NCBI GenBank assembly: GCA_017542245.1 | Contig: JAFXXN010000123.1 | Location: 62,001 to 126,000 of the forward strand | Length of the DNA stretch: 64,000 nucleotides | DNA from: Lachnospiraceae bacterium | GTDB lineage: Bacteria; Bacillota; Clostridia; Lachnospirales; Lachnospiraceae | Reading direction: 5' to 3' | In this document: piece by piece, positions 27,677 to 62,112 of the stretch | Position numbering within the stretch: position 1 is the first letter of the stretch | How the letters are laid out: each line of letters starts with the position of its first letter | Notes under the pieces: generated by a model | Told to the model about the DNA's origin: nothing | Databases searched by the model: none | The model's input: the letters and a program-made list of their open reading frames with translations, nothing else | Made by a program: the position numbers and the translations under genes

Positions 27677-27730
27677 AATTTCCTCCAAATAATATAATTC
27701 CTTTAGGCTATTATAGCCTACAACTAATCT

Positions 27731-28886: not shown

Positions 28887-31800
28887 TTATATATATTCCT
28901 TCCTTCGTATTGTATTTTCTTCGCTGATATTTGTGGGTGGATCCGAATATCCTGTTTTGGGATTAAACGTTGACCCCGGAATTCTTACTACTATCACATC
29001 CCCCTCATTCAATTCATAATCCTGCCCGAAGCAGTCGGTTCTCTCAGTCTCAAATCCTTCCATCTTCCACATATCGCACATACCCAGATTTATATTTTCT
29101 TCAGTATTTGAATATGTCATTATAAGCCTGCCTTCCCCATCATAAGCTTCAATCCTGAAGTTAACCGCAATATACCCCTTTTCATAGAAGAACTCTTCAT
29201 GATATGTACATCCGCCTCTGCTTTCAAGACAGGTGTCCAGGTCAAAATCCTCCGGTATGCTATACCATATATCCGGAAGCGAATAGCTGAATGTCCATTT
29301 TTTATCTGTTCTCATATTGTACGGATATTCCAATCCACCTACAGGGCTTTCTCCATCTTCGTATTCAGTTTTGGGTTGTGCCTCAAAAGAAGCTCCCGCT
29401 CTTACAAAATTAACGTTTCCTGAATCTAAAGCTTTCGAATAAAGTATTGCAGCTCTGTTTCTTTCCACGTCCGGAGAAATATGATAAAATTCGGGTGTTA
29501 TCAGTATCCTTGCATTTTCATCAAACATTCTGCTGCCAAATGTTTCCAGTGAAAAGCTCCATGTATATCCGCTTTTGAGCATTCCGCCGTTATCCTCTTT
29601 AGGTCCTGTTCCGTCAAGTATTGGAAGGATATATTTATCAATAACTTTTCTTCCGTCGGCGTCAGTCTTTTTTAGCCCCAGTTCATTTTCTGAGCCGCTT
29701 CCGTACCGGTATCTTTTGCCAAGATCAAAATCCCGGTCAAATATACCGTCCGGATATTTATCGGTATACAGATACTTTTCTTCTCCGTTTATTCTGAAAA
29801 CTCCTTTCCAGTCTTTAGCTTCAGAATTTATACTATACAGTTCCAGTCCATAAATTTTCCCTGAAATCTCTATTTCTGTTTCTGCTTCATATATTATTTT
29901 TCCCACGTTGTTAAAAGACGCTGCCTTTATCGTATAGATTCCCTCCGCGATATCTTCCGGCACATAATATCCCGGATAAAGCCTATTCCATGAACCTCCT
30001 TTTATCCTCATCCCGTTTTCCGTGCAAACATCAAAAGTAAACATTACAAGAACCGACTCGTTATATCCGTCTATCTGTAATGAGAAATCCGATGAATCAT
30101 GTTCATGCCCGAGACTTCCGTATGAGAAGGATTCCCCTACCACTGCCTGTGCTATATCTTTATTCGCATTAAGATTCTGTACATATTTAAGATTATCGCT
30201 TATCACCGATATACTTATTGGCTCCTGAGTATTATCTTGTACACACGGGATATATACTATTCCCCCGGCAAGTCCGGAAGCCTTATAAGGAGTGTCCGTC
30301 ATTATGCTGTGTCCGTAATCTGTATCTTCATAGATTTTTAGCCAGAGTGTGTCTTTCGCCTGATCATAGCTGTACATATAAATATATGTTTCATCATAAT
30401 CCCTGAAAAGGTCCGAATATTCCCACGAAGTATTTTCGCTGTATATAAAGTATGCTCTGAGAGGAGCAACGCTGTCACTGTAAACTGTATAGTTATGGTA
30501 AGGATCCTGATTTGATCCGTTGTCATATATAACCGTTACTGCTCCTTCATCCTGATGACTGTTATTAAAATATATCGATCTTTTAATCTTTCCACATGTG
30601 ACACAGTAATAGGAATCAATATTTCCGGTACTGCCCCCATGGTAGCTGTGCAACTTTTCACCTGATGGACAGTCACCCGTATGTTCTTCTCCGTATCCTT
30701 CGTAACAAAAGGCCGGGATATACCTTGCTTTATCTTTTATAATTCCGTTTTCTCCGGATATTCCGGGTACATTAAGCGCCCACGAAAGATATCCGTTTAT
30801 ACCATACCACTTTACCACTGAACCGTTAAAGAAGCTTTCTTTAATATCTTCCAGTAAAATGTCCCCCGTATCCGCATCAAAATATCTTATAATAAGATTG
30901 TTCTTATCTTTATCGTTTACGCAAAAAATAAAAACAGTATAGAATTCTCCTTCGCTTTCGGTCCTGAAACTTACCTTAAATGTTTCACTAATATCCGTAC
31001 GTCCCTCGATAAATCCGCTTATCCCTCCGGTTATTCCCTGATTGTAAATGTCAGCAAAACAGGTGTGCCCCGTTACCAGTACAGAACTGTCATACCCATA
31101 TGCAATACCGTCAAGCGAAGCAGCCTTATATGTGCGGCCGTTTGCTTTTATCTCCTGAAGTATGTCAACAGAGTATAGGGTATTATAATCGTATCGGCCA
31201 TTATCCTTCTCCCGGTTTTTCCTCATCTCGGTCTTTAGCCATTTATATCCTGACAAGGCATCATCAAATCCAAAATATTTTATTATAACCATTGCATCCT
31301 TAGGCTTTGCCGGCTCTGTGGGTGTTGGTGTTGGCTTGGGTGTCGGTGTCACCGTTGGTGTTGGAGCGGGTGTTTCCTCAGGTGTAGGAGTAGGTTCCAA
31401 TGGCTCTGTAGGAACCTCGGTAGGTGTAGGCGTAGGAACCTGTTTTAAAGTAACCGGTATATAAAGTATTACTTCTATGGCTTTTGAAGCCTTTACCTTA
31501 AAGTTATATTCATTATCACCAGTTTTATTAAATCCGCCGGGCAATCCTTCTTCATCGGCCGCATCCTTAGCTTTTATTGAATTTCCGTTCACCATATCCA
31601 TATCGCTTTTCATATTCCATTTCGGAAAATCATTTTTTAAATATGGATCTGTATTGTAAATAAAAACCACATTCATGGTATTTCCAGAAATATCTTTCAT
31701 GTTTCCGGGTTCAACCGATATATATTCTTCTCCGTCATAACCTGTAATTTCGTAGGGAACGGTCTTTTTCCATGTTTTCTTTACGGAAATTCTTTCATTT

Positions 31801-32564
31801 TCCTGTTTTACGACCTCTCCATATTCGTTATAGTATGCAGTATTTACATAGCACATTTTCTTAAACGGCACAGGAATGTTCAGACATGCCAGCTGAGAGT
31901 CATGTGTAGCTTCGGTATTATTCCACCATATTTTTAAAAGATCTGAATAAACATAATACGGCGAATTATTTGTTACCTTATTATCTTTATGCCACGAATC
32001 ATCGTTACTGCCTCCCGTTACGGCGAAAACATGATGTATGTACAGCTCACCGTATATTCCCTTATGTGCCGCTTCATCAAGAAGTCCTGTAAATATGGAA
32101 CCATCCAAAACATAAGTAGTTGTAATATATCCGTCATCCGCCGGATCACTGTCAAACCAGTAAAAATCCAGTGTCTTGTCATCTTCACTGTATTTCTTTG
32201 AGCTTCCGTCAAGCGATACTATATAGGAAAGACTATAGTCATTTCCCGCTGCCCCAAGTCCGTTAAGGTTGTCATATATAGATGCTTCACTAAGAGAAAT
32301 TACAAAGCTTTGTGTATAATATTTTATCCCGCTTCCGCTTGAATAGTGCTTTCTCTGGTAATAGACTTTATTTTCACTCTCCTTGTATGTGATAATACCG
32401 TTACTTCCCAAAGTATAAGTAGTTTCATCCTCCCCTTCTTCTGCATATGCTTTTATGACTCCTATAGAAATAATGACCGTAATTGTCAGAAAAAGAGGCA
32501 TGAATAATGCTGTACCAAATTTTCTTCCTTTTCTTATTCTTTTCAAATAATTATCTCCATTCAC
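28887..32564 (-). CDS. large secreted protein of the Tad-like operon
   Basis: This 1225-residue protein is not assignable to a family. A basic start and hydrophobic segment (residues 18-38) with IKAYAEEGE give a probable signal peptide. A Thr-Pro/Glu linker (about residues 385-430, TPTPTEVPTEPLEPTPTP) splits it into an N-terminal beta-rich part and a larger C-terminal part that is also beta-like, with many aromatic and Gly residues. No sortase signal or lipobox is visible. It is the last gene of the operon, 28 bases behind another secreted protein, so it could be the cargo or tip adhesin of the machine. GTG start with AAAGGTG six bases upstream. Confidence 0.7.
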   Translation of the reverse strand: MNGDNYLKRIRKGRKFGTALFMPLFLTITVIISIGVIKAYAEEGEDETTYTLGSNGIITYKESENKVYYQRKHYSSGSGIKYYTQSFVISLSEASIYDNLNGLGAAGNDYSLSYIVSLDGSSKKYSEDDKTLDFYWFDSDPADDGYITTTYVLDGSIFTGLLDEAAHKGIYGELYIHHVFAVTGGSNDDSWHKDNKVTNNSPYYVYSDLLKIWWNNTEATHDSQLACLNIPVPFKKMCYVNTAYYNEYGEVVKQENERISVKKTWKKTVPYEITGYDGEEYISVEPGNMKDISGNTMNVVFIYNTDPYLKNDFPKWNMKSDMDMVNGNSIKAKDAADEEGLPGGFNKTGDNEYNFKVKASKAIEVILYIPVTLKQVPTPTPTEVPTEPLEPTPTPEETPAPTPTVTPTPKPTPTPTEPAKPKDAMVIIKYFGFDDALSGYKWLKTEMRKNREKDNGRYDYNTLYSVDILQEIKANGRTYKAASLDGIAYGYDSSVLVTGHTCFADIYNQGITGGISGFIEGRTDISETFKVSFRTESEGEFYTVFIFCVNDKDKNNLIIRYFDADTGDILLEDIKESFFNGSVVKWYGINGYLSWALNVPGISGENGIIKDKARYIPAFCYEGYGEEHTGDCPSGEKLHSYHGGSTGNIDSYYCVTCGKIKRSIYFNNSHQDEGAVTVIYDNGSNQDPYHNYTVYSDSVAPLRAYFIYSENTSWEYSDLFRDYDETYIYMYSYDQAKDTLWLKIYEDTDYGHSIMTDTPYKASGLAGGIVYIPCVQDNTQEPISISVISDNLKYVQNLNANKDIAQAVVGESFSYGSLGHEHDSSDFSLQIDGYNESVLVMFTFDVCTENGMRIKGGSWNRLYPGYYVPEDIAEGIYTIKAASFNNVGKIIYEAETEIEISGKIYGLELYSINSEAKDWKGVFRINGEEKYLYTDKYPDGIFDRDFDLGKRYRYGSGSENELGLKKTDADGRKVIDKYILPILDGTGPKEDNGGMLKSGYTWSFSLETFGSRMFDENARILITPEFYHISPDVERNRAAILYSKALDSGNVNFVRAGASFEAQPKTEYEDGESPVGGLEYPYNMRTDKKWTFSYSLPDIWYSIPEDFDLDTCLESRGGCTYHEEFFYEKGYIAVNFRIEAYDGEGRLIMTYSNTEENINLGMCDMWKMEGFETERTDCFGQDYELNEGDVIVVRIPGSTFNPKTGYSDPPTNISEENTIRRKEYI

Positions 32565-32592
32565 TTAAAACACCTTTTCCTTCTTTTTACAA

Positions 32593-34101
32593 CTAGAAAG
32601 GAAACTTAAGAAGCCACGGCATAAATCCCGTATAGTCGATCATGATCCCTCTTGAAGTATTGGTACAGTTAAGGCATCCGTATGAATCTGAAAGACCGTT
32701 TGTGTTAAAGAAAAAATCCACCCATTCACCCATATGATAGTTCATATACATTTCACTGAGAATTGTTCTGGTAAAAAGCGTCCCGCATTCATAGCCGCGT
32801 CGTACCGGATATAAATATCCGTAGATATCCTGATCGTTTCCGGATGTATATCCTTTCTCAAGCGGAATATCTGAAACAACCCTCATATGAGCATATACCT
32901 TACAGTTGTAATCACCGTCATACCAGTACACCGCGGACGGATCCGCACTGACCATATCACATTCGATTATCGTTTTATTCTCAATACAGTGTTTTATATA
33001 ATCGTCTATTTCTTCTTCCGTCAAATACTTTTTCATCGCTTTATACCATTTTTTATCGTCTTTGATCGTTCTGTAGTCAATGTTTAAAGCATAGTTATAG
33101 AATTCCACGGAACTTTCCGCAATCTGTTCAACTGATCTGTTGTTTCTGTAACAGTCAAGAAAAACATTGGAGTTATATGAAAAATCGTCACCGGGGTATT
33201 TCAATGAATTAAATTGCTCAATCTCAAACGGGTATACAAATCCAAAACTCTTCCGCCCCATTCTTTCCTTTAATGAACCTGCTCCTATCCCTTTTCCTTC
33301 TTCAAAAAAATCTTTCGATATCCCATTAAAACCGGTATCATAGTATTCATCCGGAAATGAATCAAGAATATATGGATAATACGCCGCATTATGCGGGAGA
33401 TTATCGGTCCTTAACACCTGCAAATCGGGAGAAAGACCTATTCGCAAACTTGTATCGGTTAACTTCTGTATCATTTTCTGCGCATCCTTTTTAGACAGTT
33501 TTTCCGCCGGTTTTACCAAACGCATATGAGAATACTGTTCTACTGCCTCACCCTTAATATATCCTCTGATATATGCTTTTGCGATCGCGGTCTTCACAGT
33601 TTTTTTCTTTATTGAACCAATATCTGCTATCCTGTTTTCCAGAACAAATTTTACCGATTCCGTAGCTGTTTCTTTCCAACTTTCTGTTCCCCTGTAAAGT
33701 AATTCTTCCGCTCTGTCGATAATGACAGCCGCATCGCCCAGGCTTAGGCGTTTCTTAAGTTTTTTCAGATCCTGTATCGTTATCAGATTAAGGCTTTTTG
33801 CTATAACGCATATACGTGCGTCATCTTCCGAAATCTTATATTTTTTCTCATATTTTTTTATAAGCGATTCATCTATCTCTTTTCCGTTAACTTTGGTCAA
33901 TTCACTGTTTATCACTGCATTTTCAATATTTCCCCTAAATTTTTTCTTATCCTTTAGCGTAATTATTTCTTCAACAAGATTTTTTATATATGAAAGCCTT
34001 GTATATCCGGCAGCTGCTTCTGCCCTCAGCTGTGGAAACAGGTTTATAATGACCAGCATTACCAATAACCCTAATAGTATTTTTATCCTGTTCTTTCTCA
34101 T
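32593..34101 (-). CDS. secreted protein of the Tad-like operon
   Basis: A 502-residue protein with a signal peptide (RKNRIKILLGLLVMLVIINLF, cleavage likely after RAEA or AEAAA) and an unassigned mature part rich in Lys, Tyr and Asp. The C-terminus has a CLNC motif (SDSYGCLNCTNTSRG) and a separate cysteine pair. I see no catalytic motif or membrane anchor. The ATG at 34101 overlaps the upstream gene end and has AAAGGGAGG upstream. Its place at the operon end suggests a structural or exported substrate of the pilus-like machine. Confidence 0.65.
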   Translation of the reverse strand: MRKNRIKILLGLLVMLVIINLFPQLRAEAAAGYTRLSYIKNLVEEIITLKDKKKFRGNIENAVINSELTKVNGKEIDESLIKKYEKKYKISEDDARICVIAKSLNLITIQDLKKLKKRLSLGDAAVIIDRAEELLYRGTESWKETATESVKFVLENRIADIGSIKKKTVKTAIAKAYIRGYIKGEAVEQYSHMRLVKPAEKLSKKDAQKMIQKLTDTSLRIGLSPDLQVLRTDNLPHNAAYYPYILDSFPDEYYDTGFNGISKDFFEEGKGIGAGSLKERMGRKSFGFVYPFEIEQFNSLKYPGDDFSYNSNVFLDCYRNNRSVEQIAESSVEFYNYALNIDYRTIKDDKKWYKAMKKYLTEEEIDDYIKHCIENKTIIECDMVSADPSAVYWYDGDYNCKVYAHMRVVSDIPLEKGYTSGNDQDIYGYLYPVRRGYECGTLFTRTILSEMYMNYHMGEWVDFFFNTNGLSDSYGCLNCTNTSRGIMIDYTGFMPWLLKFPF

Positions 34102-34105
34102 ATGA

Positions 34106-34621
34106 TTAGTAATCCTCCCTTTCCATGACAAACGATCCCGATATCCTGTAACCGCTGTAAACTCCGTACTCCAGCGGATATCCTATAAAATATGCCGCAA
34201 ATGAGGTTTCTGTTTCTTTATCATTCTGTTTCAGCTCCGACCTTTGATAACACTTATACGGTTCCTCATAATCGGATCCATCAATATATGTGTAATCATA
34301 ATATCCTTCCTTAAGCGTTATCATTATCTCAGGGATATATTTTTGTATTTCTTTTCTCTTTTCCGGCAGATCCATTATTCCCAAAGATGCATACAGAGAA
34401 TAATAAAATGCCGCTATTGCCCTTTCCTCAACCACACTGTCAAATACCGTACCCGATGATCTCATTTCCCATGCAGCGGCATTGACTGCCTCATCGATCA
34501 TTGCATCCATTCTTATTCTTACTTCTTCGTTTTTTCTTTCCCATGAAAGCTTTACATCCGTTATCACTATCACACTTACAGCGAATACGGCAAAAAGAAG
34601 CGTAAAATGATATATCTTCAT
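34106..34621 (-). CDS. TadE-like single-pass pilin-like protein
   Basis: The 171-residue product has an N-terminal hydrophobic helix (residues 5-22, YHFTLLFAVFAVSVIVITDV) and a small extracellular domain starting with a long amphipathic stretch (RIRMDAMIDEAVNAAAWEM), the general plan of TadE/TadF-type minor pilins. There is no confident family match. The ATG at 34621 follows GGGCGGGAA; the ATG at 34660 has no site. Confidence 0.6.
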   Translation of the reverse strand: MKIYHFTLLFAVFAVSVIVITDVKLSWERKNEEVRIRMDAMIDEAVNAAAWEMRSSGTVFDSVVEERAIAAFYYSLYASLGIMDLPEKRKEIQKYIPEIMITLKEGYYDYTYIDGSDYEEPYKCYQRSELKQNDKETETSFAAYFIGYPLEYGVYSGYRISGSFVMEREDY

Positions 34622-34671
34622 AATGTTCCCGCCCCATCGTATATTTTTGTTCGGAAGCACATGCCAGAAAT

Positions 34672-35040
34672 TTAAAGAATGACCCTCATAGCTGAATACA
34701 CCGTACTTTCTCTGTCTGATATTTTAAGGATCAGCGTATCCGTATGCATTAAACCGATGTTTTCGGAAAAATCCCATAATTCAACAATGTCCGAGTTCCT
34801 TTTTAATATAGAAATATCAACAAAGTATTCTCCGAGACTCCCGATTTTTCTCCTAAATTTTTCCAGATCACTTTTTTCTATATATCCCTTACTATCTATC
34901 TGCTCCATATATTCAGCTGTGGTATCGGCTATCTTCGCCTCTGCTCCGTTCATAGACCGGCACAGTGCCCAGGATATCGGAAATATGAACAGTACTGCTA
35001 TCAATATAAATGTGTCACATAATTTTCCCAGATAATCCAT
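34672..35040 (-). CDS. small single-pass pilin-like protein
   Basis: The 122-residue protein begins MDYLGKLCDTFILIAVLFIFPISWA, an N-terminal helix, followed by NGAEAKIADTTAEYMEQI, which resembles the helical start of TadE-like proteins. The rest is a short extracellular domain. It sits 11-16 bases from its neighbours in the operon. Function inferred from context only. Confidence 0.55.
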   Translation of the reverse strand: MDYLGKLCDTFILIAVLFIFPISWALCRSMNGAEAKIADTTAEYMEQIDSKGYIEKSDLEKFRRKIGSLGEYFVDISILKRNSDIVELWDFSENIGLMHTDTLILKISDRESTVYSAMRVIL

Positions 35041-35055
35041 ATTTCATATTTCCTT

Positions 35056-35898
35056 TCAGCCGTTACCGTCTGCCCTAAATATTTTTGAAAAGCATCGTGC
35101 AGCAGCCAGATATTCTCCGGGATACAGACTGTTTTCAGCCCGCACCAGGATAGCATTAAATGCTTCCTCAACTGTGAGCTCTTTTTTCTGCCGTTCATCA
35201 ATCATCGCCTCAACAAGACTTTTGACCGGCTCTCCGGCTTTTTCTCCGTTCCATTCTGTTTTCCCTCTTTCATACAGATATCTGTAAATATGCGAAAACA
35301 TTTCTTTTTCGAGCATACTTTTACTATTGTTATTATTGCTGTCGCCAATAACAATGCTTTCGTTTTTAGGATTATTTAACTCAAAGAGTTCAGCAGGCAT
35401 GTCTATATATGATTTTCCTTCTCTTAAGTATCTCGCTATCAGCATGATCCGGTTATAATATTCTCCGTTTTTTCTTCGCTTTATTATCTCCCTGAAAGTA
35501 CATCCGTCCGATGAGACCGAACCTAAAAATGCGTTGTAGCCCGCTGTCACTGAGTTGAGCGACCCCCATATTAAGAACAGCATTCTGATAAAAAAAGTTT
35601 CCGTAAGAAAAGCTGCAAAATACATTATTGTCCCGGCTAACAGATTGGCTATGATACCTCCGCATATAAAAAGAGAGGGATTTTTTGTTATGCAAGGCGT
35701 GTACATCATACACTGACCTATAGGCGCTTTTTTATATCTTCTGAACCTGCAAATGCCATTTATTATTTCAAATGAAAATCCAAGTATCTCTACATGCAGT
35801 AATCTGTATCCGGTAATCAGGCCAAATATACAATGTCCAATTTCATGGAAAATAATCGTTGTCAGTATCAAGCTTTCCGGTCTCCTGTCAAAGTCCAA
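35056..35898 (-). CDS. M50/site-2-type membrane metalloprotease of the Tad-like operon
   Basis: The 280-residue membrane protein carries the zinc motif HEIGHC near residue 18 in a hydrophobic helix and a second M50 motif, YNAFLGSVSSDG, where Asn and Asp-Gly match the family NxxPxxxxDG pattern without the proline. Two further hydrophobic segments lie between them (ICGGIIANLLAGTIMYFAAFL). The C-terminal third is soluble. The start is a TTG at 35898 overlapping the end of the 35-residue gene upstream. No prepilin peptidase is in this operon, so this protease may process the small pilin-like proteins; that is inference. Confidence 0.7.
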   Translation of the reverse strand: MDFDRRPESLILTTIIFHEIGHCIFGLITGYRLLHVEILGFSFEIINGICRFRRYKKAPIGQCMMYTPCITKNPSLFICGGIIANLLAGTIMYFAAFLTETFFIRMLFLIWGSLNSVTAGYNAFLGSVSSDGCTFREIIKRRKNGEYYNRIMLIARYLREGKSYIDMPAELFELNNPKNESIVIGDSNNNNSKSMLEKEMFSHIYRYLYERGKTEWNGEKAGEPVKSLVEAMIDERQKKELTVEEAFNAILVRAENSLYPGEYLAAARCFSKIFRADGNG

Positions 35899-35995
35899 CG
35901 GTAAGCTTTTCCATCATATAAAGAAGCATGGTAACCGCCAGACAGAAAAGGATTGCCGCAACTGCCTTTTCCATTATTTCCGTAATATTATCCAT
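35888..35995 (-). CDS. 35-residue single-pass membrane peptide
   Basis: ATG at 35995 with GGAGG eight bases upstream, stop at 35888. The peptide has an acidic N-terminus (MDNITEIMEK) and a membrane helix (AVAAILFCLAVTMLLYMM). It overlaps the upstream gene stop by eight bases and the downstream TTG start by 11, so all three appear translationally coupled. It is Flp-pilin-sized but lacks the usual prepilin cleavage site; a substrate or partner of the adjoining protease is plausible. Confidence 0.6.
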   Translation of the reverse strand: MDNITEIMEKAVAAILFCLAVTMLLYMMEKLTVGL

Positions 35996-36443
35996 AAATA
36001 TATCCTCCGCTTATTTCAATTTTTTCAGGTATATATGAATCCCATAACAGATTTGCCGTTTTTTCTCCGATTCCCTTTCTTAACGGTATTGCCTTAAGAG
36101 TTACAAGACAGTTATATACGGCTATACTTCCCGACTTGTCGATCTGTTCCATAATTTCACTTGTATACATGATCCTTAATTCTTTGGTATTTTTTCCGGT
36201 TAACACTGTTCCGATCTCTATTTCAATCTCATAAGGGATACCGGATAAAGCTATTCCAGATATCATTTTTTCAAGTATTTCTCTTGTCAGCATACCCTCA
36301 AGCCTTATTTCCCGGTATGCTCCGTCAAGAGCAGCCGTTACCATGCTTTCTGTTCTTCCCGCAACGCTTACGCCCTTATACTTAACAGGAATAATCATAA
36401 GCAGTACTGCTGCCACAAATCCTGCTGCATATCTTCCAAGCAT
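35988..36443 (-). CDS. pilin-like single-pass protein
   Basis: The 151-residue protein starts with a short hydrophobic helix (YAAGFVAAVLLMIIPV), followed by an amphipathic helix (ESMVTAALDGAYREI) and a beta-rich remainder. This is the general pattern of minor pilins or TadE-like proteins. AAAGGA stands eight bases before the ATG. It lies 11 bases behind the paralogous pair upstream. Confidence 0.55.
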   Translation of the reverse strand: MLGRYAAGFVAAVLLMIIPVKYKGVSVAGRTESMVTAALDGAYREIRLEGMLTREILEKMISGIALSGIPYEIEIEIGTVLTGKNTKELRIMYTSEIMEQIDKSGSIAVYNCLVTLKAIPLRKGIGEKTANLLWDSYIPEKIEISGGYIYG

Positions 36444-36454
36444 ATATTATTCCT

Positions 36455-36955
36455 TTAATGTTGTGTAAACTCAATGTTAACAACCAGTCCGTTACTGTTT
36501 TTGTATACTTTTCCCCTATAAGAAGCATTCTCATTTATATGCGCTTTATCCGTGATCGTCGACTCCTGTGTCGAACCTGCATATTGAAGTCCCGAAGGCG
36601 TTATCGTCTTGTTATCTATAGTCGTTACGGCTGTTTTGTTCCCCGCATTACTGTAATTGGTTCCTGTCGAATCTTCTTTTGTGATTACTGTTACAGAAAC
36701 GTATTCTGTCTGGCACATCTCATTTATAACAGATATAACTTTAGAGCCCGAGACATCCAGCCCGTCATACATGGTTGCACTGATTTCGGAATAATCACTC
36801 ATGAGCTGTGTATATTGAGTAGTTCCTCCGTTTATAGTACTTTTAGAAGAATTTGCCATATATAAAGCCAACGCGCTCAATATTACCGCAATTATTACTG
36901 TTACTGCCAACACCAGGCCCTTTACACCTATTTCTACATTATTTCTTGAATTCAT
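36455..36955 (-). CDS. pilin-like protein, paralogue 1 (YDGLxVSG motif)
   Basis: The 166-residue protein has one N-terminal helix (GLVLAVTVIIAVILSALALYMA) and an extracellular Ser/Thr/Asn-rich domain. It contains MYDGLDVSGSKVISVINEM and ends KNSNGLVVNIEFTQH. The gene immediately upstream has the same architecture with matching motifs (QYDGLTVSGADMVNFCI, KNGIITEVVFTKK), so the two are tandem duplicates. Clean AAAGGAAGAG site. Likely structural subunits. Confidence 0.65.
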   Translation of the reverse strand: MNSRNNVEIGVKGLVLAVTVIIAVILSALALYMANSSKSTINGGTTQYTQLMSDYSEISATMYDGLDVSGSKVISVINEMCQTEYVSVTVITKEDSTGTNYSNAGNKTAVTTIDNKTITPSGLQYAGSTQESTITDKAHINENASYRGKVYKNSNGLVVNIEFTQH

Positions 36956-36968
36956 TTTTCTCTTCCTT

Positions 36969-37475
36969 TCACTTTTTTGTAAATACTACTTCTGTTATTA
37001 TTCCGTTTTTATTTCGATTTACCCTGCACATCCACTTTGACATCGGATTTACATATTCACTGTTTTCCGGATCTTTAAGTTTTACCGCCGAATCATAATT
37101 GTTATATGTTCTGCTGTTTCCGGAGCTGCTCTTTAATGTTATCTTAAATCTCGGCTGTTCTCCCGAAAAAGTATCTTCAAGCTGTTTAATACAGAAATTT
37201 ACCATATCCGCACCGGAAACCGTTAACCCGTCATACTGCATAACATCAGAATTCCTAATATATTCCGTCCTCTCATTTATCAACTCGGAAGACACTCCGG
37301 CCATATCCTGCGCAGCTCTGAACTGAGTTATCATAAGCGAAACCAGGATTACCGATAAGATGACCGATACTGCAAGAAGCAGCGCTCTCGGTGCTATTTC
37401 TATGGAATTTATCCCATAAAGCAGTCCGGCGGCATCCTTTTCCATATCAGATTTTTTTATCATCTCATATCTCAC
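36969..37475 (-). CDS. pilin-like protein, paralogue 2 (YDGLxVSG motif)
   Basis: The 168-residue protein has its hydrophobic helix at about residues 31-50 (ALLLAVSVILSVILVSLMIT) after a polar N-terminal segment ending NSIEIAPR, compared with NNVEIGVK in its paralogue. The shared E-I/V-x-x-x-x-L/ALLLAV pattern could be a processing site. GTG at 37475 is used here; ATG at 37463 is possible. It follows the platform gene by ten bases. Confidence 0.65.
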   Translation of the reverse strand: MRYEMIKKSDMEKDAAGLLYGINSIEIAPRALLLAVSVILSVILVSLMITQFRAAQDMAGVSSELINERTEYIRNSDVMQYDGLTVSGADMVNFCIKQLEDTFSGEQPRFKITLKSSSGNSRTYNNYDSAVKLKDPENSEYVNPMSKWMCRVNRNKNGIITEVVFTKK

Positions 37476-37485
37476 ACCTTTCCCT

Positions 37486-39432
37486 TTACATGCTCATCGT
37501 AATCCCTGACTGATATTCGTTAAATATCTGCATTGAACGTATCATAAAAGGACAGAGCAGATATCCGAATAAAATAAATCCACCCGGCAGTATCGCAATC
37601 ACCGCTCCCAGCATTCCCTCAGTATCCAGTAATATTTTTCTGTCAAGCTTCCTGTTTTCCTTGAAGTTTTCTATCTCTGACGATATCTCTTCGAATGCAT
37701 CTTCTATACCTATTTCGTCTGCCATCATAAAACAGTCTGCGAGCCTTCGCCACTCCGGATCTTTTTCGGATTCATACAGCCTTGAAATTGCAGCTTCTTC
37801 GGATATACTGTACTCATTGATACATTGTTTCACAGCCGGCTTGAATATTTCGGAGAACCGCTCCATTTCCTCTAAAAGCGAGATCACGGATGTCCCTGGC
37901 ACTTTCTTTAACATGTGGATTATGCTTTGAAACTGCATTATCTCATCTCTTACCCTGCCCTCAATAAGGGATTTTTTGAAAAATATCATTGTATCCGGGA
38001 ATTTATACAGTATTAACGCGGCCAGCAATGCCAACAATAAATCTTTTACCGTCAGATGTTCTTCATAATATAATAATACACGCTTTAAGATCTCATCTGC
38101 GGCACTTCCTGCTACTGCAGCATTTTTTATATCTTTTTCCAAAAGCAGTGATTCAATGAGTTCCTCCCTGCTCCTTTCAGTTCCTTTTTCAATCATTTCG
38201 GCTGTGTATTCCGGAATAAGCCTTTCCATAGCCGTAAGCTGCCTGGAATCAGCCGTCGATGTCAGCTGTGAAACATCGGGGATATCATATTTATATATCC
38301 TTGCCGATTCGGCATGTCCCATAGAAAATATAAACAGTGCTGCAATTAAACCTCCGATGTAGTACAGTATTTTCAGCATATAGAAAGTTTTGATCTTATA
38401 AACTTCGCACAAACGTTTCAGATATTCGGACATTTTTTCAGCTTTTTTCCTGTTCATTTTCATGACGAGTTCTGTAATATTTCCAAAAATCGGTATATCA
38501 GCCAGTATTTTCGCCAATCTGTACTTTTTCTTAGCGAGACGCTCTCCGTCTCTTAATTCCAAAAGGGCATTGTAACAAATAAACGTGACTGCGATGAGAA
38601 GCATTTTTATACATGCTCCGGCATATCCGTTATAAAACAGGTTGAGTGACGCTATCGTTGAAACTCCCCACATCGCTATGTACGGAATTGCTATTACCGG
38701 AAGCACTGCGGTATACATAAGTCCGGAAAAACGATGTCTTTTTTCTGCAATAAACCTTGCTTCCTCTTCAATATCATATTTAAGGTGCATACATGAATTT
38801 AAGAAAACCGACCCCTTTTCATCTTCAACATCTCCGTTTTCTTCTACAAGTTTTGCAAGAGTAAGAAATAGTTTCAGATATTTATGATATCCTCCGTTTA
38901 TAAAGCTGTTTACCTCCGAGACAGGATCTGCCGCATTAAGACATCTGCACATCTCCCTTATGTGTCCCCGCATCAGCGGCGGGCTGTCCCCTTCCGCCAT
39001 GACCAGGGCGTCTTTTATCGAGCCGCATTTATAGTAATAATGCCGCATTATTCCAAGAAATGAATCAAAACCTTTTAAGAATTTCAGTTCCAATCCTGTT
39101 ATGGATGAAGTGATAAATTCCATATAGAAAAAGTACATCATCAAGGCACTTGATATTAAAGTAAAAATTGAGGGATTTAGGCAGAAAATAATACAAAATG
39201 AAAGTGCTGAAGCTATATATATCTTTAAAATACATTTTATGGTCTGTACAGTGCATTCCTTTATATCACCGTTCAGATAGACACGGTATTTTTTCAGGAC
39301 ACTGTTTAATATCGGAAGACATATCGGAAATCTTTCCAAAAAATCATATAATCCTATGAGCAGATCTTGTGCTGTTGTTTTTCTTTTTACAAATATTCTG
39401 TCTTTATCTTTACCTCCTTTATCCTGCTGCAT
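37486..39432 (-). CDS. TadB/TadC-like inner-membrane platform protein, double length
   Basis: This 648-residue protein has two halves, each with membrane helices and a T2SSF-like cytoplasmic region. The second half is clearest: FQSIIHMLKKVPGTSVISLLEEMERFSEIFKPAVKQCI as a landmark between residues 500 and 540, then a final hydrophobic pair near LGAVIAILPGGFILFGYLL. Classical Tad systems use two genes, tadB and tadC, of about 300 residues each; here they appear fused or duplicated. It would be the platform that the TadA ATPase drives. ATG overlaps the tadA stop as TAATG. Confidence 0.75.
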   Translation of the reverse strand: MQQDKGGKDKDRIFVKRKTTAQDLLIGLYDFLERFPICLPILNSVLKKYRVYLNGDIKECTVQTIKCILKIYIASALSFCIIFCLNPSIFTLISSALMMYFFYMEFITSSITGLELKFLKGFDSFLGIMRHYYYKCGSIKDALVMAEGDSPPLMRGHIREMCRCLNAADPVSEVNSFINGGYHKYLKLFLTLAKLVEENGDVEDEKGSVFLNSCMHLKYDIEEEARFIAEKRHRFSGLMYTAVLPVIAIPYIAMWGVSTIASLNLFYNGYAGACIKMLLIAVTFICYNALLELRDGERLAKKKYRLAKILADIPIFGNITELVMKMNRKKAEKMSEYLKRLCEVYKIKTFYMLKILYYIGGLIAALFIFSMGHAESARIYKYDIPDVSQLTSTADSRQLTAMERLIPEYTAEMIEKGTERSREELIESLLLEKDIKNAAVAGSAADEILKRVLLYYEEHLTVKDLLLALLAALILYKFPDTMIFFKKSLIEGRVRDEIMQFQSIIHMLKKVPGTSVISLLEEMERFSEIFKPAVKQCINEYSISEEAAISRLYESEKDPEWRRLADCFMMADEIGIEDAFEEISSEIENFKENRKLDRKILLDTEGMLGAVIAILPGGFILFGYLLCPFMIRSMQIFNEYQSGITMSM

Positions 39433-41288
39433 TATCCACCTCTTTCACATTCCGGTTCTATGACTTCTCCATCAGCTGTTTCCTTAAAAAGCCTGTCCCA
39501 CTCGTTAAGTCCTGAATATCCCGTTTTTTCCCCTATCCTCTTTCTGGAAAATTCGGAAATATCATTTTTTACTCTGTATTCGAGTTTTTCTTTATCAAAT
39601 TCAATAATATTCGAAGTTCTGTATAAATGCCTGTCTGTTTTTCTGGAGAAATACTCCCGGCATGCTTCTTTATAGTCTGGCGGATAATCCATATTTTCAA
39701 CCGGTATAATCTCAGTTATTCTTTCTATATAAAATCTCCCTTCTACGTCATGTACCATATGCACATCAAAATTTAATATGTCCACTACCTGCTTTTCGGC
39801 GATATTTACATCATTTATTCCAAACTCGGCGACCAGTGCGTTTCTTAAGTATTCTATCAGCTTATCGGTTGTTTCATGGTGCAATGTGGTTACAGCCATC
39901 CTCGATCCCGACTGTGCTACCTGTATATACGCTCCCGCAATCTTCGGTTCATTTACCTCGCCTACTATCAATATGTCCGTATCCATCTTTTTGGTACCCG
40001 TAATGATATCATAGATGCTGAAACCGCCTCTTTCCTGCATCATATGTATATCTCTTTCGGGATATACATTGTTCAGGTTAAGCTCAAAAGAGCTTTCCGC
40101 GACCCTTATCGTATATCCCGGGTTCATAAAACCGACCAGTGATTTCAGCAAAGTCGTTTTTCCGCCGCCCATCGGACCCGAAATACAAAAGTTTGTTTCG
40201 CCCCTTGTGATCAGTTTTAACAGTGTAATTACCTTTTCGCTGTTTTTATGTATGAGCAGTGTCTCTATTTTCTTCGCATTTGCAGATTTAAATTTTCTCA
40301 CATAAAATGCCCATCCGTCGGAAACCGGCGGTCTGGCTGCTACTATACGGGATCCGTTTTTAAGAGTCCCGTGTATCACAGGATTCTTCCTGCTGAGCGA
40401 TGTTCTTATGTTATAGCGGTAAATATTTTTTACCACTCTTTCAAGATTTTCCTCCCGCTTAAAAGACAGGAACTTCAGCCTTATGAGTTTGCCATGAAGG
40501 ACACAGTAAAGAGTATCATAATTCATGCTTGATCTGTCGGTCTCATGAAGGACTGATAATTCCTCGATATAGTTATATTCAACACGGCTTCTTCCACCCA
40601 CCCCGGCCGATACTCCGTCTATGGATTCATCCATTATGAGTATATCCGCGCAGTCATGTCCGTAAAGCATCTGATAGCATCTCTGCACAAGAACGTCAAG
40701 CCTGTCGTCGAAATTTCCACTTGAAAAATATCCTTCAAATGCATCATCTACATCTCTCTCGGTTATTACATAAGGAGTTCCGTAAATATCTCCTTCTTTA
40801 GGTTTATTCCAGCCGAAATCATCCGCCATGACAGCAAATACGCCTCCGCCCAATTTCTTTAAGTAAATAGCGTACATATACTCAAATTTATCCTGAGCAC
40901 TCATACGGGTAGGTGTATCGAACGGTATGATACCGCTTATGTTGTTCTCATTTATCCCGACTCTTTTCAAAAGTATCTCTTTTATGTATTCTTTCAGATA
41001 TTCCCGGTCCCCGGCATCTCCCAGGCAGGCTTCTCTTATTGATTTTTTAAGTCTGAACTGCTGTTTTTCTCTTTTTAATGTCTCCTCACGGTTCAGATTT
41101 AATTCGGAATAGTCACTGTTCAGTATCTCGTTTATTATGATCCTGCATTCCTCAAACAGTCTTTCAGGATTCATATCTGTTACTTCTTCAGTCTTTTCCC
41201 TTCTTTCTTTTCTTTTCGAAGAATCAGAAACCAATATAAGTATTATGGGAAGAAGTATCAATGCAAGACCGGCTGCAATTCCAGGCAT
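39432..41288 (-). CDS. TadA/CpaF-like secretion ATPase with N-terminal membrane anchor
   Basis: The 618-residue ATPase has Walker A CISGPMGGGKTTLLKSL, an Asp box with IRVAESSFELNL, Walker B-like DILIVGEVNEPKIAG, and the His box TTLHHETTDKLIEYLRNAL, all in TadA/CpaF order. Unusually it begins with a membrane helix (PGIAAGLALILLPIILILVSD) and a long helical region before the N-terminal domain. The ATG at 41288 has GGAGG seven bases upstream; it lies inside the end of the upstream gene. It powers assembly or secretion in this operon. Confidence 0.85.
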   Translation of the reverse strand: MPGIAAGLALILLPIILILVSDSSKRKERREKTEEVTDMNPERLFEECRIIINEILNSDYSELNLNREETLKREKQQFRLKKSIREACLGDAGDREYLKEYIKEILLKRVGINENNISGIIPFDTPTRMSAQDKFEYMYAIYLKKLGGGVFAVMADDFGWNKPKEGDIYGTPYVITERDVDDAFEGYFSSGNFDDRLDVLVQRCYQMLYGHDCADILIMDESIDGVSAGVGGRSRVEYNYIEELSVLHETDRSSMNYDTLYCVLHGKLIRLKFLSFKREENLERVVKNIYRYNIRTSLSRKNPVIHGTLKNGSRIVAARPPVSDGWAFYVRKFKSANAKKIETLLIHKNSEKVITLLKLITRGETNFCISGPMGGGKTTLLKSLVGFMNPGYTIRVAESSFELNLNNVYPERDIHMMQERGGFSIYDIITGTKKMDTDILIVGEVNEPKIAGAYIQVAQSGSRMAVTTLHHETTDKLIEYLRNALVAEFGINDVNIAEKQVVDILNFDVHMVHDVEGRFYIERITEIIPVENMDYPPDYKEACREYFSRKTDRHLYRTSNIIEFDKEKLEYRVKNDISEFSRKRIGEKTGYSGLNEWDRLFKETADGEVIEPECERGG

Positions 41289-42100
41289 GTTTTTTCCTCC
41301 GTTTCCCCGTCGGTTATCTGTTCCGAAAAAAGGCATATCTTATCTATCGTTTCCTTCAATGCCGTAAAAAAGTATTCATCCGGACAATTCCTGTTTTCTT
41401 CGTTAAGATTCATCCGAAGATATCTGAGCACCTTTTCGTCACATATGGCGTCCCCATATCTTGTATTGTGCGGTATTTCCCCCGAATTATTTTTTCGTAT
41501 TTTCTTATAAAGATGCCGGATATTTGTAAGACTGTATTTGCTTTCCCTGTCATAATCCCCGAACAGATAAAATATCTTTTTATCCGAGAACACTTCGTTT
41601 TCGAAAAATCCGTCCAAAAGATATCTGTCCTGTCGGAGTGTCACTATGACCATGTCACACTCTTCTATTATTTTCTTTGAGTATTCATTGTTTCCGGAAT
41701 TGGTATCGACAAGAACTATATCGTAATACTTTTCTATAATGGTCAGAATATGCGCGATCATATTTTTTACTATCCCGCTTTCATATCCTTCGCGGCTGCT
41801 GTTTTTTGTACCTGCAAGCAGATACAGATTTTCGCTGATCTTTATTGAGCAGTCAGATATATGTTCACCCGTAACAGTACCTGATTTAAAATGCCTGATA
41901 ACCGCATCTATACCTGTATCCCTGAAAAAATCCCCGTTATCAACATTACCCAGGAGCGGTCTTTCAAGATTGTTTAGGTTATAGTGAGTATGCGTTACCA
42001 GAATTTTGTTTTTCTTCAACTCGGATAATGCTATTGCAACAGCCAGAAGACTGGCGGTCGCTCCTGTCCCGTGAAGAGGACTCCAAAAGGCTATTTTCAT
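41258..42100 (-). CDS. CpaE/TadZ-like MinD-family protein with degenerate P-loop
   Basis: The 280-residue protein has the MinD/ParA fold pattern: N-terminal KIAFWSPLHGTGATASLLAVAIAL, then DIVLVDTNSG in the Walker B place, and VTLRQDRYLLDGFF. The P-loop reads HGTGATA where active members have KGGxGKT, so both lysines are lost and ATP hydrolysis is doubtful. TadZ proteins position the Tad machine at the pole; some are likewise degenerate. The start overlaps the previous gene as ATGA. Confidence 0.7.
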   Translation of the reverse strand: MKIAFWSPLHGTGATASLLAVAIALSELKKNKILVTHTHYNLNNLERPLLGNVDNGDFFRDTGIDAVIRHFKSGTVTGEHISDCSIKISENLYLLAGTKNSSREGYESGIVKNMIAHILTIIEKYYDIVLVDTNSGNNEYSKKIIEECDMVIVTLRQDRYLLDGFFENEVFSDKKIFYLFGDYDRESKYSLTNIRHLYKKIRKNNSGEIPHNTRYGDAICDEKVLRYLRMNLNEENRNCPDEYFFTALKETIDKICLFSEQITDGETEEKTCLELQPVLH

Positions 42101-42756
42101 GAGAATACCCCCTTTGCGCCATGGCGGATCGCTTTTTTCAGTTCTTTTGTCATTTCTTCCGGAAATATAAATGCTGCAATCTCATACAAAAGTTTCTCCA
42201 TTTCCTTTGATACTGATGTAAAGCAGTACATATCATTGTGTTCTGCCATGACTGCATTTTTTCTGTCTTTAATATTTACCGGAAGTGCAAAAACTCTGTT
42301 ACAGTTAAAGCTGTCCGCAATTGTTTCTATCCTTTTTGAAACTGCTCCCGTATATTCCCTTATAATTATCATGCTCTCTTTCTTTAAGCTTAATGTTTCC
42401 ATAATATCTATATTTCTTTTTGATTCATCCGTCACAAGAATACAAGGATCGTTTTCTCCCTGATATCCGGAAATATCATATAATCTGAAAATACAGTCAG
42501 CCTCATTCATATCCCTTGATTTTTCTTTTTCCGAACAGCTTCCGAACGTATACCCGACACCTCTGTAATCCATTACTTTATCTACAGGTTCTACACCTCT
42601 AATATGAGGAACGAGCGGATAGAATCTGTGTGCTGTCGTATGATCCACAACTATCGTTTTCTTATTTAAACATTTTGCGATCCTTATAAGATAAAGAACA
42701 ATATCCTCAAAGTATCCTCCAACAAAGCTGATTTCCTTTCTGCTTTTCAATCCCAT
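42097..42756 (-). CDS. second CpaE-like protein of the Tad-like operon
   Basis: The 219-residue protein resembles a shortened MinD-type fold. It has ISFVGGYFEDIVLYLIRIAK at the N-terminus, KKTIVVDHTTAH, then DPCILVTDESKRNIDIMETL and RVFALPVNIKDRKNAVMAEH. No intact P-loop is present. It overlaps the CpaB-like gene and the TadZ-like gene at both ends. I infer a localisation or assembly role; no family match is certain. Confidence 0.5.
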   Translation of the reverse strand: MGLKSRKEISFVGGYFEDIVLYLIRIAKCLNKKTIVVDHTTAHRFYPLVPHIRGVEPVDKVMDYRGVGYTFGSCSEKEKSRDMNEADCIFRLYDISGYQGENDPCILVTDESKRNIDIMETLSLKKESMIIIREYTGAVSKRIETIADSFNCNRVFALPVNIKDRKNAVMAEHNDMYCFTSVSKEMEKLLYEIAAFIFPEEMTKELKKAIRHGAKGVFS

Positions 42757-43619
42757 ATTGAGCCCCCGTGTTCTGTATCCGGACTTTTTTCTTTCTCATT
42801 ATTGTTAGAAGCCCCACCGTTCGAAGATGAAAAACCAAACAGACTGTTTTCAATCCCTATCCTCTCCTCCACAGATATCGAACCTGCCAGTATTGCCTGT
42901 ATGTTGGGATTTTCCCTTATAAGTTCATACAGGGGTACGGACGGAGAATAATTTACAACCGAAGGATTTTCTTTCTCAGGAAATATGTATTTTGTAAGAT
43001 ATATCACAGAGTCCGGATACCTGTATGTATCTACCAGGGCCGAATCCATCAAAAGGATTTCTTCCTCGCTCATTTGCAGGTAAATCTTTTTTCTTGAAGA
43101 GTCAAGACCTGTGATCTTCTTTTTTGAAACAACCACATAATCGGTACCGTCCGGGTAGCGTAATCTTATGTCTACATAGTTATCCGTTTCTACATTTTCC
43201 GGGATATTTATAAAATTATATTCCGCTTCCTTGAAAAGCACGCCGTTTTCATCTCCGGCGAGAATATTTTTTGTCAGCTCGTCTCCCGGTTTTATATCTA
43301 TAAGTACTTTCTTTCCGAAATCTTCATCAGTAACAATCTCCGATGATTCCGTTAAAATGTCATATTTTTCACACATATCCGGATGCAGGACCGAACCGGC
43401 CTGTATATATTCTTTAGCTCTGTAAGCCGGCACAGTATATCTGTCTATCTTTTCTTCCAGTTCGCTTATCCTGTTTCTGTAAGATTCCTCCACATCGTCC
43501 CTGGCATTTTTAAACATATAAAAAGCTGCTCCGAAAGCGCACAAAAGTAATATGATACATATGAACAGCATCACTCCTTTAAGGCTTACTCCGGACATTT
43601 TCCTGACCCGTCTGCTCAT
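42747..43619 (-). CDS. CpaB/RcpC-like SAF-domain protein
   Basis: The 290-residue protein has one N-terminal helix (VMLFICIILLLCAFGAAFYMF), a short coiled coil (NRISELEEKIDRY) and a SAF domain: PAYRAKEYIQAGSVLHPDM, then KKVLIDIKPGDELTKNIL. CpaB proteins form a periplasmic or wall-side part of Tad machines. The C-terminal region (SSSNGGASNNNEKEK) is low complexity. It is the first gene of the 14.7-kb operon, with GGAAGGAG before the ATG and a promoter at 43739. Confidence 0.75.
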   Translation of the reverse strand: MSRRVRKMSGVSLKGVMLFICIILLLCAFGAAFYMFKNARDDVEESYRNRISELEEKIDRYTVPAYRAKEYIQAGSVLHPDMCEKYDILTESSEIVTDEDFGKKVLIDIKPGDELTKNILAGDENGVLFKEAEYNFINIPENVETDNYVDIRLRYPDGTDYVVVSKKKITGLDSSRKKIYLQMSEEEILLMDSALVDTYRYPDSVIYLTKYIFPEKENPSVVNYSPSVPLYELIRENPNIQAILAGSISVEERIGIENSLFGFSSSNGGASNNNEKEKSPDTEHGGSIWD

Positions 43620-43764
43620 CAGGCACTCCTTCCGTAATCTTAAATATGATGTTGAAAGTAAAACCCTGTTTTTACCTCAACTTATAATTATTTTCTTTGG
43701 GAAATAAAACGAATGCATGGCTAATCCCATACATATGAAATATAAATATTACTTAAAACGTATT

Positions 43765-43836
43765 CAATGTCACCTCAAAAACGCCTTCAGCATTTCCTTG
43801 GTAAAAAATGATGCTCCGCATCTTCAATTTTGTTAT
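43765..43836 (-). repeat. double-hairpin intergenic repeat, copy C
   Basis: Complete copy: AATGTCACCTC, AACGCCTTCAGCATT, then GATGCTCCGCATC and CAATTTTGTTATA. Its left end supplies the -35 box of the pilus-operon promoter. Confidence 0.8.
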
Positions 43837-61796: not shown

Positions 61797-62112
61797 AAAA
61801 AAACGGCATATTCATAAAGAATATGCCGGGACAAATCAAATGATCTGCGGTGCCACCCTGCTTGATGTAAAACATCCACTCTAACGCATACATAAGGCAG
61901 CGAACCAATATTATACTTTGGAAACACATACCATCATATGCTGACTTTTTTTACGTAGAGTCCAGCTACGTCTCCCATACTTTGTCTTTGACATTTCTGT
62001 TTGCCCTCAGAAGTCCATTCATATCTGATATTCATACCGCAATTTCACCACCTGCAGCTCTCTGTAAAGAAATCTCAAATACTACTTACTCTTCCTCAAC
62101 GGTTTTTCGATT
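61797..62112 (-). promoter_or_regulatory. T-box riboswitch with Trp specifier controlling the trp operon
   Basis: The T-box sequence AGGGTGGCACCGCAG (61861-61846) pairs with the uncharged tRNA end. Upstream stem I has AGAGAGCTGCAGGTGGTGA, followed by a specifier region GAATGGACTTCTGAGG with TGG at 62017-62015, reading tRNA-Trp. Downstream the terminator CGGCATATTC, loop, GAATATGCCG and seven T residues (61828-61797) ends transcription when tRNA-Trp is charged. Thus tryptophan starvation turns the operon on. Confidence 0.93.

Follow-up and report, generated by a model that had tools for sequence, protein, structure and literature searches.

How would a pilus locus equipped with a Tad-type motor and platform build a filament if it holds neither a prepilin peptidase nor an Flp pilin? 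The question is raised by a minus-strand operon at positions 28887 to 43619 of a 64,000-nucleotide stretch of Lachnospiraceae bacterium DNA, hereafter the window (positions 62,001 to 126,000 of the forward strand of contig JAFXXN010000123.1; GenBank assembly GCA_017542245.1, comprising 4.7 Mb in 203 contigs with 8.6% contamination). A previous, sequence-only reading of the window had listed CpaB-, TadZ-, TadA- and TadBC-like proteins, single-pass pilin-like proteins, an M50 protease and two secreted proteins, and we find this gene set at approximately the positions given there. Its remark that the operon lacks a prepilin peptidase and an Flp pilin also stands: the operon has no A24 peptidase gene and no Flp protein with a class III signal peptide.

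Our answer, held with moderate confidence, is that the operon encodes a type IV filament machine of Tad descent, found in Bacillota, and that its pilin-like subunits are synthesized with no leader to be cleaved. The gene content of the operon is conserved, and its presence is beyond chance, because the same genes in the same order are present in many genomes. A24 genes are nearly absent from loci of this type, as is the class III motif from the small proteins encoded there, and the M50 gene is patchily distributed among them.

Gene content, affinity and distribution

Relatives were drawn from order, class and phylum genome sets, each sampled evenly from larger groups, and from named genomes. 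The genes are listed below in operon order; P219, P168, P166, P151, MINI, P122, P184, SEC512 and BIG are names coined in this analysis (aa, amino acids; ORF, open reading frame).

42747-43619, minus strand: CpaB/RcpC-like single-pass protein of a SAF-type family (SAF domain, PF08666, in relatives)
42097-42756, minus strand: P219, a second TadZ-like cytoplasmic protein by reading of its sequence; family in 33 of 49 order loci
41258-42100, minus strand: TadZ-like protein of the MinD/ParA family (AAA_31, 8e-5, below cut-off)
39432-41336, minus strand: TadA/CpaF-like assembly ATPase with an N-terminal membrane helix (T2SSE, PF00437, 4e-16)
37486-39432, minus strand: fused platform protein, TadB-like first, C-terminal half weakly TadC-like (hhalign of the halves)
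36969-37475, minus strand: P168, pilin-like paralogue of P166 (profile match, 99.9%), exact start uncertain
36455-36955, minus strand: P166, leaderless pilin-like protein and candidate major subunit (alignments and motif rules)
35988-36443, minus strand: P151, single-pass minor-pilin-like protein (sequence and alignment)
35888-35995, minus strand: MINI, 35-aa single-helix peptide; family in 26 of 49 order loci
35056-35898, minus strand: M50 (site-2-protease-like) metalloprotease with a TTG start (PF02163, 9e-5, below cut-off)
34672-35040, minus strand: P122, single-pass minor-pilin-like protein; some relatives have very large C-terminal extensions
34106-34621, minus strand: P184, single-pass minor-pilin-like protein; likely start an internal ATG, the ORF opening at 34660
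32593-34101, minus strand: SEC512, secreted protein with an apparent Sec signal peptide; likely ATG start, the ORF opening at 34131; in 18 of 49 order loci
28887-32564, minus strand: BIG, large secreted protein with a Pro/Thr linker; family in 17 of 49 order loci

The SAF domain is recognized in 9 of 16 members of the CpaB family and named in the annotation of three plasmid relatives ("SAF domain-containing protein"); the window copy itself has no Pfam match, and the family profile matches the FlgA structure 3frn at 1.5e-5. P219 has no Pfam match and, as far as can be read from its residues, no recognizable P-loop. The neighboring TadZ-like protein is tentatively so named from a MinD/ParA-type match below the cut-off. 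The stop codon of MINI, a gene missing from the earlier gene list, overlaps the start of the M50 gene, and relatives of MINI occur both with and without M50. BIG, a candidate adhesin or tip protein, occupies the position of DUF5704 proteins in Bacillales plasmids, a likeness of position.

Among known families, the TadA of the locus is nearest to TadA/CpaF. Its best NCBIfam model, TIGR03819, matches 21 of 21 family members, the window copy falling far below the cut-off (54.9 of 373 bits), and the best solved relative of the family profile is CpaF (1e-22), followed by FlaI (6e-11). The N-terminal membrane helix is present in 35 of 49 order loci, 19 of 20 class/phylum loci and 65 of 69 named-genome loci. 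In a tree of 88 TadA proteins, built by a quick method with a midpoint root for drawing and containing 25 open forks and several long rows, a long, fully supported branch splits 67 proteins of the locus type from 21 canonical ones; the two remain separate even though both co-occur in several genomes. This division bears out the suggestion of the sequence-only reading that the operon represents a distinct branch of the family.

The N-terminal half of the platform protein matches canonical TadB (hhalign, 97%; 96.8% on repetition, with 0.5% for a reversed control). For the C-terminal half, a first comparison with TadC gave 36%; with a larger alignment, the full-length profile gave 26% and the half alone 1.1%, a value at noise level. 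Cross matches in the first comparison were 3.7% and 10.1%. An archaeal-type, unfissioned platform is ruled out by the leading position of the TadB-like part. Searches of solved structures with the TadBC family and a Pfam scan of TadBC yielded nothing useful.

Judged by the TadA profile, the type is present in 43 of 393 order genomes (three weak matches, near 1e-32), 53 of 393 class genomes (12 weak matches, 1e-44 to 1e-50) and 6 of 398 phylum-set genomes (one weak), the window's own genome being included each time. The named-genome loci are the best 80 of at least 554 stretches that encode an ATPase relative at E 1e-3, with canonical TadA not excluded, and include Anaerocolumna, Alkaliphilus, Paenibacillus, Cohnella and Tumebacillus. 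Those numbered L144-L212 overlap the other genome sets (L147 and L073, for instance, sit on equally long contigs), and L133-L143 were left out of the profile survey of loci and of the strict-rule count given below; the locus profiles (A24, M50, P166 and others) are home-made. The nearest named relatives of the window among the matches listed are Lachnospiraceae metagenome-assembled genomes, one of them labelled water-buffalo omasum. The sequence-only reading had proposed looking for the same gene set in other Clostridia; it recurs in Clostridia and Bacilli, plasmids included.

Twenty-five plasmid records match the ATPase at 1e-20, among them 10 from Paenibacillus, 7 from Lysinibacillus, 2 from Butyrivibrio and 1 from Alkalihalophilus; for plasmid NC_014390.1 the evidence is the ATPase match. 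The three plasmids inspected (NC_013792.1, NC_017543.1 and NZ_MT075580.1) encode, in this order, CpaB, P219, TadZ, TadA, TadBC, P166, a small protein, P122 and P184, with no A24 gene in the 19.6-19.7 kb around the locus. The small protein at the MINI position has 125-129 aa and a single helix and matches none of the locus profiles, and downstream of the operon lie an S-layer-homology or stalk-domain protein and then a DUF5704 protein. The locus is open to bench tests, since culturable Bacillales (Paenibacillus polymyxa M1, Lysinibacillus sphaericus and Alkalihalophilus pseudofirmus OF4) carry it on large plasmids.

Leader motifs and prepilin peptidase genes

Do the pilin-like proteins have a leader to be cleaved? 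We applied one rule to both kinds of loci: a class III motif had to have Glu at +5 and either Gly or Ala at -1. In canonical loci it recognizes 15 of 20 Flp proteins and 19 of 19 and 18 of 19 TadE-like controls; in the atypical loci it is passed by P166 in 1 of 46 cases, P168 in 1 of 27, P151 in 0 of 19, P122 in 0 of 41 and P184 in 2 of 44. A strict rule is passed by 2 of 173 P166, 1 of 148 P168, 0 of 121 P122 and 0 of 87 P184 proteins and again by 15 of 20 Flp proteins, these numbers not being independent loci because overlapping locus sets were pooled; the window copies of P168 and P166 both fail it. MINI as a hidden Flp is ruled out, as it lacks the class III motif (0 of 15 with Ser also allowed at -1, and 0 of 39 under the strict rule), and a scan of the other ORFs for hidden prepilins in 138 loci gave candidates in three.

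Most of these proteins have hardly any residues ahead of the membrane helix. If the start codon furthest upstream is taken, the helix of P166 starts at a median of residue 4 and by residue 15 in 90% of cases, which excludes a longer leader in most of the family; the independent annotation of the three plasmid relatives gives similarly short N-termini. Glu or Asp occupies position 2 in 102 of 173 P166-type proteins. P166 is the small protein with the highest conservation in the locus type, and loci have from 1 to 6 matches of the P166/P168 type; conservation and copy number together lead us to infer that P166 is the major subunit.

The peptidase, too, is scarce in these loci. No A24 gene was found on the window's contig (PF01478, E 0.001), and 18 of 21 canonical loci contain one versus 1 of 69 and 1 of 80 loci of the atypical type, as counted with a profile that was trained partly on those same canonical loci. 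Five of 44 class/phylum carriers have no A24 match even at E 1. In one of the five, G723, a single PF00437 match (1e-10, in a 375-aa frame) means that no PilB- or canonical-TadA-like ATPase is visible.

We therefore picture, conditionally, a machine in which a membrane-anchored TadA/CpaF-type ATPase, a fused TadB-TadC platform, two TadZ-like proteins and a CpaB-like protein would cooperate to extract ready-made subunits of the P166/P168 type from the membrane into a filament or a short pseudopilus. The N-terminal helix of each subunit would be inserted without a leader, and no prepilin peptidase step would be needed, because the subunits start almost directly at the membrane helix. P122 and P184 would serve as minor subunits, possibly at the tip, and the large secreted proteins would be partners in adhesion or in the surface layer. 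The M50 protease may have been added, or kept, in two of the sampled lineages in an accessory role such as the disposal of signal-peptide remnants or regulated turnover.

A bolder version, which we put forward tentatively and hold at slightly short of even, is that the loci on chromosomes and plasmids form a widespread class of Bacillota type IV filaments whose subunits are born mature, with the acidic residue at position 2 perhaps replacing Glu5. To our knowledge, this would be the first type IV filament to dispense with the one enzyme thought universal. A conserved machine with leaderless subunits, if confirmed, would separate the needs of motor and platform from the function of the leader. 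Pilin searches rely on the cleavage motif of the prepilin peptidase, and motif-based surveys would, if the reading is true, miss the whole class.

Several observations weigh against subunits without a leader. No filament has been seen. The P166 family has no match among solved structures and only chance-level, unconvincing matches to Pfam, and its profile matches Flp only weakly, over the helix (21%). The window's own copies also count here: P168 carries Gly-x4-Glu (GINSIE) just before the helix and is the sole P168 of 27 to pass the Gly/Ala rule, and P166 passes when Ser is admitted at -1, motifs that relatives in general do not share. Admitting Ser also raises some of the counts (P166, 4 of 46; P168, 2 of 27; P151, 0 of 19; P122, 1 of 41; P184, 2 of 44), and in a few relatives an M-E/D-N-A start followed by four residues and Glu is readable as a tiny leader. 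The strict rule, moreover, recognizes only 4 of 19 and 2 of 19 TadE-like controls, low scores that we think are due to a proline, and so separates only Flp. Among the remaining profile comparisons, P168 reaches 13% with Flp, and the small proteins of the locus reach at best an unconvincing 23% with TadE over the helix region (P184 to TadE2); the C-terminal part of the P184 family matches canonical TadE1 at 80%, over 51 columns only.

A24 genes elsewhere in the genomes tell in the same direction. The window's own genome has three, all on other contigs. On contig 74 a TadV gene stands in a canonical Tad locus, beside genes for Flp1-like and TadE-like proteins whose class III signal peptides are of the textbook kind, so that one assembly contains a classical Tad system as well as the atypical operon. 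The sequence-only reading had named a prepilin peptidase and an Flp pilin that serve the operon from elsewhere as one finding that would speak against it: TadV and an Flp1-like protein do exist elsewhere in the genome, though service of this operon by that TadV is no more than a possibility. In L127, an A24 gene, which could be a transitional form or a neighbor, lies on the same strand about 1.6 kb past P184 (11066-11479 in operon orientation); its genome, G700, is the only one with A24 within 10 kb of the locus by printed coordinates. The only A24 gene among the 80 named-genome loci, in L169, stands beside canonical TadE/TadG-like genes.

Nor is the peptidase scarce genome-wide. An A24 match exists somewhere in 29 of 29 carriers of the first set (29 of its 31 genomes over the cut-off; two of the 31, G018 and G021, have no locus and were not counted as carriers), in 34 of 34 of the second (33 over the cut-off; limit, E 0.1) and in 39 of 44 class/phylum carriers (37 over the cut-off; limit, E 1). 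The five carriers without a match are fragmented assemblies (completeness 90-99%, 130-220 contigs). PilB- or canonical-TadA-like ATPases are still present in four, namely G492, G606, G695 and G800; proof of a genome-wide absence of A24 was not reached.

As a separate observation, the third, short A24 gene of the window's genome, on contig 104 (L002), has no obvious pilus gene in the 3.3 kb around it, by reading of the translations.

The explanation that draws most on these facts is that the operon encodes a diverged Tad pilus with a borrowed peptidase, its pilin-like proteins being cut by an A24 enzyme encoded elsewhere (the TadV of a canonical locus, or PilD). Borrowing is possible in most hosts, because most carriers have A24 somewhere, as the window's genome does alongside its full canonical Tad locus; the Gly-x4-Glu of the window's P168 would suit it, and a precedent exists in the MSH loci, all of which, according to the available part of Denise et al. 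2019, are without a peptidase and co-occur with systems having one. What such an enzyme would cut is harder to see: the class III motif is nearly absent from the subunit families, most members of which have no long N-terminus to remove, and five of the 44 carriers show no A24 at all, though four have other pilus-type ATPases. On balance we regard a borrowed peptidase as unlikely, if well worth keeping in mind.

Secreted proteins and the M50 protease

A further possibility is that the machine makes no surface pilus. The leaderless proteins would then assemble into a short pseudopilus in the membrane, or a piston, by which the secreted proteins encoded alongside are exported or displayed. Many loci do encode secreted or S-layer-type proteins, and in a Paenibacillus the deletion of putative pilus genes at two loci, which may or may not be of the present type, had no effect on motility in the part available of PMC5072692. 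Against this, SEC512 and BIG appear from their sequences to have their own Sec signal peptides, and up to six pilin-like ORF matches per locus fit a polymer; we find the piston doubtful, more so than the borrowed peptidase.

The leaderless reading also leaves the M50 protease to be accounted for. Its residues H18, E19, H22, N122 and D131 (HExxH and a distal Asp) are invariant in 11 of 11 relatives. Beyond the window, M50 genes were detected in 15 of 43 complete order loci, 0 of 20 class/phylum loci and 0 of 51 further named-genome loci; in the named-genome set of 80 they occur in L133-L138, L143 and L173, the last being incomplete at its end. Two lineages are known to have the gene, the window's genus and g88. 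In that genus, six loci (L056-L061) are without M50, and the N-terminus of their P166 is nearly that of the M50-bearing L054. Genes like SEC512 or BIG are present in 15 of 15 M50-bearing loci versus 6 of 28 without M50, these being related loci and not independent; the association fits a role of M50 with the secreted proteins and points to another task than pilin maturation. The patchy distribution and the nearly unchanged P166 N-terminus in its absence make M50 an accessory, not a replacement peptidase.

The proposal of the sequence-only reading that this intramembrane metalloprotease may replace the prepilin peptidase is therefore rejected as highly improbable, despite intact catalytic residues, a gene location within the operon for the genus of the window, a recurrence in g88, and a home-made profile that could miss a very diverged protease such as the HExxH protein with a hydrophobic flank in L083, which lies outside the M50 profile matches. 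A search of solved structures with the M50 family gave nothing useful.

Some loci vary in their accessory proteins. In L051, L053, L054, L078, L084, L085 and L123-L125, the P151/P122 genes are replaced by or fused to genes for very large proteins. The P122- or P151-type proteins of some lineages reach about 460 to over 1200 aa, a size that suggests possible variable tip adhesins.

Just beyond the operon of the window lies a SecD-SecF fusion gene (25430-27688), with an opposite-strand DegV gene between them. Several same-genus loci have ORFs of comparable size after the operon.

In uncultured, low-GC Clostridia, the TadA and TadBC genes are broken into two ORFs at a CGG codon, and the frame is restored if CGGN is read as one residue (Gly in homologues). 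TadA is split in L128, L129, L130 and L217 (G601, G746, G796 and G718) and TadBC in L121, L129, L130, L188, L193, L202, L208 and L217. The TadA site falls in the Walker A motif, by sequence in four genomes from two genera (g271 and g304), and the position of the split suggests the same site in G552 and G760. CGG is rare there, occurs unusually often in the last 15 codons of ORFs and is often, not always, accompanied by a long open +1 frame. In samples of genomes, not whole genomes, the codons so placed number 5 of 10 in G718, 4 of 12 in G746, 3 of 3 in G585, 0 of 2 in G784, 3 of 3 in L188, 2 of 2 in L193, 1 of 1 in L202 and 3 of 3 in L208; the comparison values are 2 of 57 for the window and 4 of 37 for L113. 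A candidate explanation would be +1 frameshifting or four-base decoding at an unassigned CGG. No tRNA-Arg(CCG) was among the tRNAs scanned, a scan that covered only part of the tRNAs. CGG is unassigned or reassigned in other organisms, according to the accessible part of PMC8629427; counting against the candidate, tRNA-Arg(ICG) of B. subtilis can read CGG, as stated in the corresponding part of PMC10454642.

Comparison with known systems

The closest likeness is to Tad pili (Tad/T4cP), with which the locus shares a TadA/CpaF-type ATPase, a TadB-like platform, a TadZ-like and a CpaB/RcpC-like protein and small single-pass subunits. It differs from them in several respects: (i) the TadB- and TadC-like parts are fused, B first, and there is an extra TadZ-like protein; (ii) TadA is far diverged and, in most loci, membrane anchored; and (iii) homologues of Flp or TadE with a class III signal peptide are lacking, as is TadV in nearly all loci. 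Reviews, in the portions available, treat the prepilin peptidase as a core component of type IV filaments. In the titles and abstract openings of the open-licence literature, we found no description of leaderless type IV pilins or of this locus, nor, in the literature listings, of its wide conservation, its leaderless subunit families or the patchiness of M50.

The locus type is nevertheless not wholly unseen, because Imam et al. 2011 (PMC3244431) noted, in the part of the text available, Gram-positive tad-like loci in Clostridia that encode no protein with a prepilin signal peptide and whose tad genes are distant from other tad genes. That group is possibly, in part, the same. The same portion of the paper lists tadV among the genes and calls the remainder species-specific, whereas here the small-protein families are common to genomes from Lachnospiraceae to Paenibacillus and TadV occurs in hardly any locus. 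The trait of a diverged tad locus without a prepilin motif holds for nearly all relatives of the window, although the window's P168 passes the Gly/Ala rule.

The M50 protein has HExxH and a distal Asp in common with site-2 proteases, and differs in that its match falls below the Pfam cut-off; no paper linking site-2 proteases to pilin maturation was found in the literature listings. MSH pili resemble the present system in having loci without a prepilin peptidase, as stated in the available part of Denise et al. 2019, and are proposed to borrow one.

With the archaellum and archaeal type IV pili, finally, the locus has a two-part platform in common, and FlaI is the next solved relative of its TadA after CpaF. 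As given in the part seen of Denise et al. 2019, TadB and TadC arose by fission of a two-domain platform in which the TadC-like part comes first and the TadB-like part second, the order found in archaea. Here the TadB-like part leads, and for that reason the fusion looks secondary and bacterial.

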